Below are positions 35,146 through 44,405 of a DNA stretch of 44,604 nucleotides, piece by piece. This DNA is from Candidatus Veblenbacteria bacterium. GTDB lineage: Bacteria > Patescibacteriota > Patescibacteriia > Veblenbacterales > UBA10138. The stretch is from assembly GCA_030700105.1 (NCBI GenBank), contig JAUYKG010000013.1, positions 1-44,604 of the forward strand, in the 5' to 3' direction. Below the pieces are notes generated by a model. The model was not told where the DNA came from and searched no databases. It saw only the letters and a list, made by a program, of their open reading frames with translations. Numbering within the stretch: the first letter of the stretch is position 1; each line of letters opens with the position of its first letter. Position numbers and translations under genes: made by a program.

Positions 35146-35159
35146 TGGTAGCGGGGGTG
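35146..35159. repeat. Left copy of the tRNA-Met 3'-end repeat (putative attL)
   Basis: Identical over 14 bases to the 3' end of tRNA-Met (44329-44342). The next bases, a CCTGCCT-GCGGT-AGGCAGG palindrome (35160-35178), interrupt the match; GGGAATC then resumes as in the tRNA before the similarity is lost. It can be read as an attachment core or as a tRNA fragment split by a small palindromic insertion. Confidence 0.5.
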
Positions 35160-35494: not shown

Positions 35495-35570
35495 TGGTGC
35501 CCTCGGAGGGAATCGGACCCCCAACCTTGCCGATAGAAGCGGCCTGCTCTATCCATTGAGCTACGAGGGC
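35495..35570 (-). tRNA. tRNA-Arg (anticodon TCT), with unusual bases
   Basis: Acceptor GCCCTCG/CGAGGGC, D-arm GCTC/GAGC, anticodon loop CTTCTAT, T-stem GGGGG/CCCTC, discriminator A and encoded CCA are all present, 76 nt. Oddities: the T-loop is TCCGATT rather than TTCGATT (position 55 is C), the 27-43 pair is G-A, and position 38 is T. It lies inside the putative element and could be an element-borne or decaying tRNA. Confidence 0.82.
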
Positions 35571-39423: not shown

Positions 39424-39530
39424 CACAAAGCCCACCGCCAGGCCGAGACTTTCGTCTCCTACACCCTTTCGGGCGTAGACCACGGACATGGAGCCTGAAC
39501 GATGGGTTCAGTATGTCCGTGGCTTTTGTG
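39424..39530 (-). ncRNA. Candidate multi-helix structured RNA with two GAAA tetraloops
   Basis: On the minus strand a closing stem (CACAAAAGCC with GGGCTTTGTG) encloses three helices. The first is CCACGGACAT/ATGTCCGTGG (39480-39522) with inner CTGAAC/GTTCAG. The second is CTACGCCC-GAAA-GGGTGTAG (39459-39478). The third is GAGAC-GAAA-GTCTC (39445-39458). Both small hairpins have GNRA loops only when read on the minus strand, which fixes the orientation. The closing stem shares two bases with the first helix. It precedes the sunset-SNase genes and may be their leader or an independent RNA. Confidence 0.6.
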
Positions 39531-39635
39531 CCATGCCCCACAGCAACGCCGGGAGGTTTAGGCAATTCAGTTGTGCTTTTGTTTTACCCCAAAATGGTCT
39601 AAATTACAAGGGGTTAGCTCCATCATTAAATTACT

Positions 39636-42166: not shown

Positions 42167-42688
42167 ATGTACGGCGACCGAACAAATAAAGTTCAAGAAT
42201 GGGTGCGGCTTAATAGCAAGGGATACCTAGCGGCCTTTTTGGGAGAACTATCGTACATTGAAGGCCAAACGGTCACGATAGCGTCATCCAGTGATGCCCT
42301 TAGAGTCAAAGGATTACTCAAGGTTGGTGCTACTGCCTATTTCAAATCGCTTGCTGATATTCACAACGGTTTTAGTGAATGGTACGGGCAGGAAGTTGAT
42401 TTTGTGCCTTCAAATCTAGGCAAGGGGTACCTATGCTATTTCCTATGCAACGGCTGTGAACGTCGAGTGAAATATCTTTACTATAACTCCCATAGGACAC
42501 AACCCTTGTGTCGCACCTGTTGCAAGCTGCACTACAGTCAGCCAAGCCGGAAGATACGCCGACTTTCAAAGCTCATTCATAGGCCATATCTCTCAAGTGA
42601 TGCTAAACAAGCTATAGTTGAGTATGCTCAAATAACTGAAGCGGACTTACCACAAGAGGCTTCTATTCAAAGCCAGAAAGAGCTATAA
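42167..42688 (+). CDS. Zinc-ribbon protein of the element
   Basis: A 173-residue protein. The N-terminal half is unassigned. The centre holds a zinc ribbon: CYFLCNGCERRVKYLYYN, then LCRTCCKLHYSQ (C-x2-C pairs at about 94-97 and 115-118). The final ~45 residues are basic then acidic. This C-x2-C-x-R-R ... C-x2-C-x-L-x-Y-x-S-Q pattern is common in small proteins next to recombinases in mobile elements. It starts 24 bp after the ATPase gene, probably in one operon. A DNA-binding accessory role is likely but not shown. Confidence 0.75.
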   Translation: MYGDRTNKVQEWVRLNSKGYLAAFLGELSYIEGQTVTIASSSDALRVKGLLKVGATAYFKSLADIHNGFSEWYGQEVDFVPSNLGKGYLCYFLCNGCERRVKYLYYNSHRTQPLCRTCCKLHYSQPSRKIRRLSKLIHRPYLSSDAKQAIVEYAQITEADLPQEASIQSQKEL

Positions 42689-42695
42689 TACCTAT

Positions 42696-42819
42696 GTTGA
42701 CCCTCCCTAAAAACACTTCCACGAGGCCTTTTTGTTGCCTATTGCTGCCCGTAAGGGGCGGTCTGCCAGCAATACTGGCTCCTCGTGGGTTAGTAGGGTT
42801 GGGTCAACCAGACCGTCCC
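42696..42819 (+). ncRNA. Candidate pseudoknotted RNA upstream of the recombinase
   Basis: Three nested perfect helices are GTTGACCC/GGGTCAAC (42696-42703 with 42801-42808), CCACGAGG/CCTCGTGG (42719-42726 with 42781-42788) and ATTGCTG/CAGCAAT (42741-42747 with 42767-42773). The apical loop holds CCC-GTAA-GGG (a GNRA loop). It also holds GGGGCGGTCT (42755-42764), which can pair over ten positions, one a wobble, with AGACCGTCCC (42810-42819), just 11 bases before the recombinase ATG. The nesting plus outside pairing makes a pseudoknot. A DNA-level role as a recombinase site is the alternative. Confidence 0.6.
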
Positions 42820-42830
42820 TTTAGGTTTTT

Positions 42831-44363
42831 ATGAAAGGCATAATCTACACCAGGGTATCAAGCGACGAACAAGTGAAAGGTACTTCCTTGGATTTTCAGG
42901 AAGAGATTTGTCGCAACTACTGTAAGGATAAAGGCATTGAGGTGCTGGCTTTGTTCCGTGAGGAGGGGGCTTCGGCCAAAACAGCTGAACGAGCAGAATT
43001 CCTAAGAGCTATTGAGTTTTGTAGAAAGAACAAGGGCAAGGTTGAGGCGTTCGTTGTAGCCAAAGTGGATAGGTTTGCCCGCAATACCGAGGACCACTTT
43101 TACGTAAGGAAAATACTGCTTGATTACGGCGTGACACTGCACTCAGTAAGTGAACCTATAGGGAACAGCCCGGTTGGAAAGTTTTTTGAAACTATGTTGG
43201 CGGGCAGTTCTGAATTTGATAATGCCATACGGAAACAGCGCTGCACCGACGGTATGCTCACCAGATTAAAGCAAGGCGTTTGGCCGTGGAATCCGCCGCC
43301 TGGCTACAAGCCTGGTAACTGGACTCGGCGAAGGGAAAAGAAGCTGCTACCAGACCAGCCTGACGAGCGGCTGTTCCCTATCATCCAGCGGGCGCTAAAG
43401 GAGTACGCCAAGGGGCTGTGTTCCCAGGTTGAGCTGGCAGGGTTGATGGACACGTGGGGATTTAAGGAAGCGCGTGGTCGGAAAACCCAAAACCAATTCG
43501 TTGATAGGGTGCTGGGCAGGTATCTGCCATTCTACGCTGGCATCTTGGTTAATCCCTGGACTGGTGAAGAGATTGATGGTTTACACAAGGCCATGATAAG
43601 CAAAGCGGAAATGGCGCAAATCAAGTTTGTCCGTTCGGGTAAGGCCAGGCTCGCTAAGAGAGAAAGGTACAACCCAGAGTTTCCGTTGCGGCGAACCGTT
43701 ATCTGCGCCGTCTGCACAGTACCACTTACCGGTAGTGCTCCCCGCGGCAACGGTGGCCGGTACCTTTACTACCACTGCCACAATAAAAAGTGCTTAATGT
43801 TTGGCAAGAGCATAGCCAAAAAAGACCTGGAAGCAGAGTTCCTGCGGTATTTGGAGACCATTACCCCTAACGAGAAGTGGCTGGCCGTATTCAAGGAAAG
43901 TGTCTTGGATTTATGGGAGGAGCAGGGCAAAGGGTTTGATGTAGCAGCACAGCGGTATGAGCGGCAGCTCGCCCTCTTAGAGACTAAAAGAAAGCGCGTC
44001 TACGAAATGCGTGAGGATGGCTCGTACACTAAGGAAGAATTTTTAGAACGGAGGCAGGAAGTAGATAACGAAATTACGGCCGCAAAAATATCTGTGAATG
44101 AGTCTAGGATTGAACAATTTGATATAGAGGGCTCGCTTACGTATGCCACTAACTTTATTCGCAACCTCGGCAGGCAGTGGTTTGATTTGCCGCCTCAAAT
44201 TCGCCCTCGGTTCCAAAAGTTACTGTTTCCGGAGGGTTTGCCATATAAAAAGGGGGTAGGATTTGGAACCGCCAGACTAGGGCTTATCTACACACTAAAA
44301 GAGACTTCTCGTAGTGAGAAATCTCTTGTGGTAGCGGGGGTGGGAATCGAACCCACGACCTAG
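42831..44363 (+). CDS. Large serine recombinase
   Basis: Site-specific recombinase that probably moves this element. The 510-residue product has the resolvase-type catalytic domain (YTRVSSDEQ with nucleophile Ser10; VAKVDRFARNTEDHF; the conserved SEPIGNSPVGKF), a recombinase domain (about 150-260), a zinc ribbon (CAVC and CHNKKC, about 288-320) and a long coiled coil (about 375-430). The last 11 codons (VAGVGIEPTT then stop) are written in the antisense of the tRNA-Met T-arm and acceptor. The gene therefore runs 35 bases into the tRNA, which places the attachment site there. A structured leader precedes it. Confidence 0.94.
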   Translation: MKGIIYTRVSSDEQVKGTSLDFQEEICRNYCKDKGIEVLALFREEGASAKTAERAEFLRAIEFCRKNKGKVEAFVVAKVDRFARNTEDHFYVRKILLDYGVTLHSVSEPIGNSPVGKFFETMLAGSSEFDNAIRKQRCTDGMLTRLKQGVWPWNPPPGYKPGNWTRRREKKLLPDQPDERLFPIIQRALKEYAKGLCSQVELAGLMDTWGFKEARGRKTQNQFVDRVLGRYLPFYAGILVNPWTGEEIDGLHKAMISKAEMAQIKFVRSGKARLAKRERYNPEFPLRRTVICAVCTVPLTGSAPRGNGGRYLYYHCHNKKCLMFGKSIAKKDLEAEFLRYLETITPNEKWLAVFKESVLDLWEEQGKGFDVAAQRYERQLALLETKRKRVYEMREDGSYTKEEFLERRQEVDNEITAAKISVNESRIEQFDIEGSLTYATNFIRNLGRQWFDLPPQIRPRFQKLLFPEGLPYKKGVGFGTARLGLIYTLKETSRSEKSLVVAGVGIEPTT

Positions 44364-44405
44364 GGCTTATGAGTCCCTCGCTCTAACCGACTGAGCTACC
44401 CCGCC
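44329..44405 (-). tRNA. tRNA with CAT anticodon (elongator Met, or Ile2)
   Basis: Acceptor GGCGGGG/CCCCGCT, D-arm GCTC/GAGC, anticodon loop CTCATAA on AGGGA/GCCCT, T-arm GTGGG-TTCGATT-CCCAC, discriminator A and encoded CCA. The first acceptor pair is G-T and the first anticodon-stem pair is mismatched or weak. Whether it is Met or lysidine-modified Ile2 cannot be decided by eye. Its 3' end is the presumed integration site of the element. Confidence 0.92.

Follow-up and report, generated by a model that had tools for sequence, protein, structure and literature searches.

Pseudoknot leaders in general are already known. SAM-II and preQ1 are pseudoknot riboswitches whose pseudoknot tail lies beside the initiation region, and in the IncB/IncI-alpha repZ leader, where an antisense RNA and a leader peptide are also involved, a short activating pseudoknot joins a hairpin loop to a strand immediately 5' of the start region in a mobile-DNA gene. 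In the 5' leader of timP, from the type I toxin-antitoxin system timPR, mutually exclusive conformations control translation and the pseudoknot can be the active form (PMC11228461), and the IS110 bridge RNA is a structured RNA adjoining the recombinase gene of a mobile element (PMC11208160). Here we describe a pseudoknotted RNA in front of the large serine recombinase gene of a predicted mobile element, found in 44,604 nucleotides (nt) of a Candidatus Veblenbacteria bacterium (contig JAUYKG010000013.1, positions 1 to 44,604; hereafter the window). The RNA belongs to a family of structured RNAs that is new and previously undescribed.

Each of these systems differs from the RNA of the window. 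In contrast to SAM-II and preQ1, it has neither an Rfam match nor a recognised ligand core. The repZ pseudoknot is short, whereas those of the window's family span 10-18 base pairs (bp); no leader peptide is seen in most members and no antisense RNA was identified. timP is enterobacterial, comprises a single toxin gene with the antisense RNA TimR and has the pseudoknot as its active form, and we do not claim kinship between the two. Unlike in IS110, the recombinase is a serine recombinase, there is no guide-like target match and the RNA is absent from close relatives.

Structure of the RNA in the window

The RNA covers positions 42696-42825 of the forward strand (130 nt), where helices P1, P1b, P2 and P3 are nested and the P3 loop pairs with the tail. 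Its parts, with counts from the 55 family members compared below, are as follows.

42684-42689, + strand: -10 box TATAAT, six bases 5' of the first P1 base, a spacing common to 36 of the 55 members; no good -35 match was found in the window
42696-42825, + strand: structured leader RNA, matched by covariance models R1 and R2
42696-42703, + strand: P1 5' strand GTTGACCC, from helix comparison and chimera test
42705-42709, + strand: P1b 5' strand CCCTA, pairing with 42794-42798
42718-42726, + strand: P2 5' strand TCCACGAGG, from helix comparison and chimera test
42729-42733, + strand: U run between P2 and P3, at least 4 T in 45 of the 55 members
42741-42747, + strand: P3 5' strand ATTGCTG, from helix comparison and chimera test
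42753-42765, + strand: pseudoknot loop strand AAGGGGCGGTCTG, from covariation
42767-42773, + strand: P3 3' strand CAGCAAT, from helix comparison
42781-42788, + strand: P2 3' strand CCTCGTGG, from helix comparison
42794-42798, + strand: P1b 3' strand TAGGG, pairing with 42705-42709
42801-42808, + strand: P1 3' strand GGGTCAAC, adjoined by the pseudoknot tail, with a 0-nt junction in 38 of the 55 members
42809-42821, + strand: pseudoknot tail strand CAGACCGTCCCTT, from covariation

A first-pass annotation of the window had described nested helices of 8, 8 and 7 pairs, and all three lie where it placed them: P1 (42696-42703 with 42801-42808, 8 bp), P2 (42719-42726 with 42781-42788, 8 bp, or 9 bp when one further pair is counted) and P3 (42741-42747 with 42767-42773, 7 bp). 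It had overlooked the additional helix P1b. The loop-to-tail pairing of 10 positions that it proposed exists and its G+C part ends 11 nt 5' of the ATG at 42831, but the full pairing consists of 13 consecutive pairs, one of them G-U, and stops 9 nt 5' of the ATG. A GNRA-capped tip (CCC GTAA GGG) is present in the window but not conserved: in other members its strands form part of the tail-pairing loop, and the tip was dropped. The window RNA has a folding energy of -59.8 kcal/mol, against -41.5 +/- 3.7 kcal/mol for shuffled sequences (z -4.9).

Compensatory changes and the sense strand

In an alignment of 34 members, 92.6% of the cells of the pseudoknot are paired and two-sided changes occur in 14 of its 17 pairs. 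The covariation score of 0.424 compares with 0.211 for shuffled alignments and was reached by none of 500 shuffles, and the signal is lost when the partner is shifted by 1-3 columns. Because this alignment had been fitted to the pseudoknot, a second test applied one common helix search to 55 natural RNAs, to chimeras joining the 5' half of one member to the 3' half of another, and to shuffles. The summed helix score had a median of 102.5 in natural RNAs and 60.5 in chimeras, with a mean of 44.7 in shuffles, and P1, P2, P3 and the pseudoknot each scored above the chimeras individually. The lowest natural score (74.0) exceeded the highest shuffled one (67.5), so that the earlier view of an arrangement beyond chance extends from the window to all 55 members, and the covariation that the first-pass annotation had suggested looking for among related leaders is there. 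P1, P2, P3 and a pseudoknot averaging 15.6 bp recur with differing sequences; by the compensatory base changes in its homologues this is a structured-RNA family.

With a symmetric scoring, which replaced an earlier one favouring G-U, the helices contain 152 G-U and 49 A-C oppositions, the excess lying mainly in P2 and the pseudoknot, while P3 taken alone has no such asymmetry (20 to 24). The excess of G-U over A-C therefore indicates that the sense-strand RNA is under selection. Together, the compensatory changes, this excess and a -10 box fixed relative to P1 strongly support the reading as RNA that had been made from the window alone.

Distribution of the family

Five loci with close relatives of the window's recombinase (L006, L007, L011, L012 and L013; 60-71% identity) have the same architecture, with strands that are altered yet paired. 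A first covariance model was built from these and the window (six sequences, with base pairs modelled for the pseudoknot only). At E<=1e-3 it was matched over its full length in 35 of 380 genomes of the class, and P1, P2 and P3 are present in these matches though the model did not encode them as pairs. A second model, built from 34 members and searched in 379 genomes across the whole phylum Patescibacteria, gave full-length matches at E<=1e-3 in 34 of them, other classes included. A few of the weakest matches (e.g. L138, L139) do not keep the helices, and matches on the minus strand were discarded as artefacts because the pseudoknot strands are self-complementary. The leaders of L097, L106 and L108 were missed by the model; they have the same topology, with P1 near the start and the pseudoknot tail directly after it, and a different sequence.

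Nearly all matches lie immediately 5' of serine recombinases, whose identity to that of the window falls to about 20%. The family is large and new, belongs to a phylum that is known chiefly through metagenomes, and accompanies recombinases whose insertion sites are tRNA genes of many identities. The recombinase relatives occur in records named Parcubacteria, Nealsonbacteria and Patescibacteria, and the L013 record is named Smithella and may be a misbinned contig. The genome of the window is small (0.81 Mb).

In agreement with the first-pass annotation, which had recognised no known family, none of the 4227 families of Rfam 15 reached its gathering threshold over the window RNA, and in 20 related loci no family covered the RNA at a relaxed E<=0.5. 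The model of the LOOT RNA (RF03000) does not match the recombinase-leader RNA, and its matches sit elsewhere in the same elements. Searches of viral contigs (with DNA patterns) and of plasmids and phages (with blastn) found no such RNA, and literature searches, with most subscription journals outside their coverage, found no description of it.

A candidate cis-acting switch

Given that the -10 hexamer lies exactly 6 nt 5' of the first P1 pair in most members, transcription is expected to start on the first P1 base. Likewise, the 0-nt junction between P1 and the tail should allow P1 and the pseudoknot to stack end to end, with the 5' end of the RNA exactly at their joint; such an arrangement, with a loop-to-tail pseudoknot of 10-18 bp, is geometrically unusual. 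One reading is a leader that modifies RNA polymerase, through antitermination of the put or EAR kind, or one that protects the 5' end from decay by sealing it: the structure would begin at +1, and P1 and the pseudoknot meet without a gap. We regard such a role as improbable, as it leaves the position of the tail beside the start codon unexplained.

A sense open reading frame (ORF) begins within 50 nt of the RNA in 50 of the 55 members, at a median of 17 nt 3' of the tail and at less than 20 nt in 31 of 50. With a -10 box 6 nt before P1 at one end and the first ORF at the other, sequence alone thus places the RNA as a leader. Shine-Dalgarno (SD) motifs, surveyed in the window and 20 loci, are rare: 10% of long ORFs have one, as do 6 of the 50 RNA-led ORFs. 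Initiation without an SD motif should depend on an open start region, and the rarity of the motif in these genomes therefore suggests that an unstructured start region matters. In the window itself, the loop strand at 42753-42758 (AAGGGG) resembles an SD motif and the tail at 42815-42822 (GTCCCTTT) an anti-SD sequence, the 16S tail of this genome being CCTCCTTT; we do not claim a standby arrangement with the loop AAGGGG as SD and the tail CCCUUU as anti-SD.

We favour, at about an even chance, a model in which the recombinase mRNA would carry this RNA as its 5' leader, a conformational switch acting in cis whose pseudoknot would close the start region of the first gene. Transcription would begin at the first P1 base, judging from the -10 spacing, and P3, P2 and P1 would form while the RNA emerges. 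The tail directly 3' of P1 would then capture the P3 loop in a long pseudoknot able to stack on P1, which would shut the bases just 5' of the first start codon and turn the first gene of the operon off by blocked initiation; where a U-rich tract follows, termination might add to the off state. If P3, or the strand between P2 and P3, held the loop instead, the tail would be free and the operon on, and a signal would presumably shift the balance between the two states. In such a scheme the leader RNA would offer a handle on how these elements hold their recombinase off and on when they move.

What the sequences contribute to this model is the helices with the pseudoknot, the choice of the sense strand, the geometry of the start site and the position beside the first ORF; we infer the pseudoknot to be the off state, P3 to compete with the full pseudoknot, and the balance to respond to a signal. 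The loop holds only about 3 and 1 nt beside the pseudoknot, and these lengths suggest that a complete P3 and a complete pseudoknot are hard to accommodate simultaneously, although a fully stretched arrangement is still conceivable. The U run that separates P2 from P3 might form weak pairs with the loop or occupy the pseudoknot groove. Mutually exclusive pairings of one strand, suggested by these lengths in the main family, are explicit in two genomes that carry a second, divergent RNA of the same architecture before non-recombinase ORFs, 2-3 kb from the recombinase-leader RNA in the same element (L134, G136:C29 33141-33280; L135, G227:C4 16719-16856), with a U6 tract. There the strand between P2 and P3 is a competing partner of the loop, with pairing energies of -14.4 and -19.6 kcal/mol where loop and tail reach -24.4 and -25.0. 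A two-state switch would be expected to look like this, and the finding supports switching.

Several points weigh against the model. The first ORF lies at least 20 nt after the tail in 19 of 50 members, too distant for a direct block, and an opposite-strand gene separates the RNA from the recombinase in L033, L044, L046 and L085, with helices intact. No conserved unpaired ligand-like core was recognised apart from the U run, and the sign of the switch is a matter of inference. The switch controlling recombinase expression that the first-pass annotation had suggested would fit most members, but some precede other ORFs or sit behind an opposite-strand gene.

Such intact copies, separated from the recombinase or placed before other ORFs as in L134 and L135, leave room for an RNA acting alone, and this is the main rival to the cis-acting switch: the element would make a stand-alone small RNA whose own pseudoknot and U-rich tract end it, and the recombinase would be expressed by read-through or from other promoters. 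The small RNA would have its own -10 box at P1, and a U-rich tract (5-7 T of 8) follows the tail in 44 of 49 members. We nonetheless consider this rival rather doubtful, because a sense ORF within 50 nt leaves no space for a second promoter in nearly all members, and because the window has just UUUAGG after the tail, with no terminator-like site found there.

The leader could also act in cis with the opposite sign, the active pseudoknot opening the start region or recruiting for initiation and a free loop or tail being the off state. The timP leader is a precedent (PMC11228461), and in L082, L087 and L091 an SD motif after the tail would stay free with the pseudoknot formed. Most RNA-led ORFs (44 of 50), however, have no SD motif, and in L029, L031, L034, L142 and L143 the pseudoknot ends 1-2 nt 5' of the start codon, where it should exclude the ribosome. 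Even with the further precedent of IncB/IncI-alpha repZ, we think this sign unlikely.

LOOT RNA in the same elements

The LOOT RNA is known but unexplained; it shares its elements with the recombinase leader, and a function for it can be suggested. In the window it has the following position.

39445-39564, - strand: LOOT RNA (RF03000), an Rfam match before divergent genes of the same element

Roughly half of the element loci that were scanned contain it, as does the window (window, L011, L047, L049, L050, L052, L053, L056 and L065 were noted), and all 10 pairs of leader RNA and LOOT on the same contig are divergent, 1.7-6.7 kb apart. Its helices and sequence differ from those of the recombinase leader. 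In most loci examined, though, it too lies before an ORF, with the ORF start no more than about 50-140 nt (mostly 46-70) past the Rfam model. Pairing is also possible between a LOOT loop and the 3' stretch just beyond that model (score 28.2 in native sequences, against 20.7 in chimeras, standard deviation 5.0). LOOT may therefore also be a leader with a terminal pseudoknot, for which these pairings give moderate support. We tentatively propose, as an idea that may well prove wrong, that tRNA-integrating elements of Patescibacteria run two divergent operons through common bistable leaders, with the recombinase leader on one side and LOOT or a second copy on the other, each ending in a loop-to-tail pseudoknot beside its first gene and reading a shared signal that would decide when the element moves.

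The recombinase gene and its tRNA sites

The gene led by the RNA and the likely ends of the element lie in the window as follows.

42831-44363, + strand: large serine recombinase, 510 amino acids, with Resolvase domain PF00239 and a zinc ribbon
44329-44342, unstranded: attachment-site repeat TGGTAGCGGGGGTG, the tRNA-Met 3' end (gene at 44329-44405, - strand), into which the 3' end of the recombinase gene extends
35146-35159, unstranded: second copy of the 14-bp repeat, from a repeat search, likely the far end of the element

The last 14 bases of the tRNA-Met gene are repeated at 35146, so that the element is likely to span about 9.2 kb. A tRNA-Arg gene (35495-35570) lies inside it, close to the left end. 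Of 20 loci examined, 18 have the recombinase gene and a tRNA gene meeting 3' end to 3' end; the tRNAs are those for Asn, Ser, His, Met, Leu, Trp, Gln and Glu, and close relatives add Ala and Ile. The reading frame usually extends into the tRNA gene; L022, beside a comM-like ORF, is an exception. Attachment-site repeats in 22 further tRNA-bearing loci did not rise above control, which the 14 bp of the window alone exceed.

The location of this site bears on the first-pass annotation's other option, a recombination site in the DNA. Inverted repeats are of course present in the DNA, and an attachment or resolution site or an operator might use them. The attachment site, however, lies in the tRNA 3' end at the opposite end of the recombinase gene, and neither the G-U over A-C asymmetry nor the register with the expected transcription start would follow from a DNA-level function, which we find scarcely credible.

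If the RNA served the recombinase as a partner or guide, in a role like that of the IS110 bridge RNA, its co-occurrence with serine recombinases throughout the phylum could be accounted for. Such a role is nevertheless very unlikely in our view: the RNA matches its own target tRNA region over at most 9 nt, no better than the targets of other elements, the recombinases served are as little as about 20% identical, and close relatives such as L008 and L009 sit at tRNA genes without it. Absence of the helices next to close relatives had been named by the first-pass annotation as a sign against its reading. They are indeed missing beside L008, L009, L094 and L095 (52-62% identical) but present beside L006, L007, L011, L012 and L013, and the RNA is thus not required for recombination as such.

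In L029, L030, L031, L034 and L142 an ORF of 71-78 amino acids comes first and the recombinase second, with a slight overlap at the recombinase start, and it is the start of the small ORF, not that of the recombinase, that sits 1-17 nt after the RNA. One guess is that this ORF encodes a directionality factor; a 27-amino-acid fragment of one of the small ORFs between RNA and recombinase was scanned and gave no match. Upstream of the recombinases of L008, L009 and L094 another short conserved motif, TTGTGTGTTGAGAAATCT, lies directly 5' of the start codon, and in L098-L100 the serine recombinase directly follows, in place of the RNA, an ORF that reads like the C-terminus of a tyrosine recombinase.
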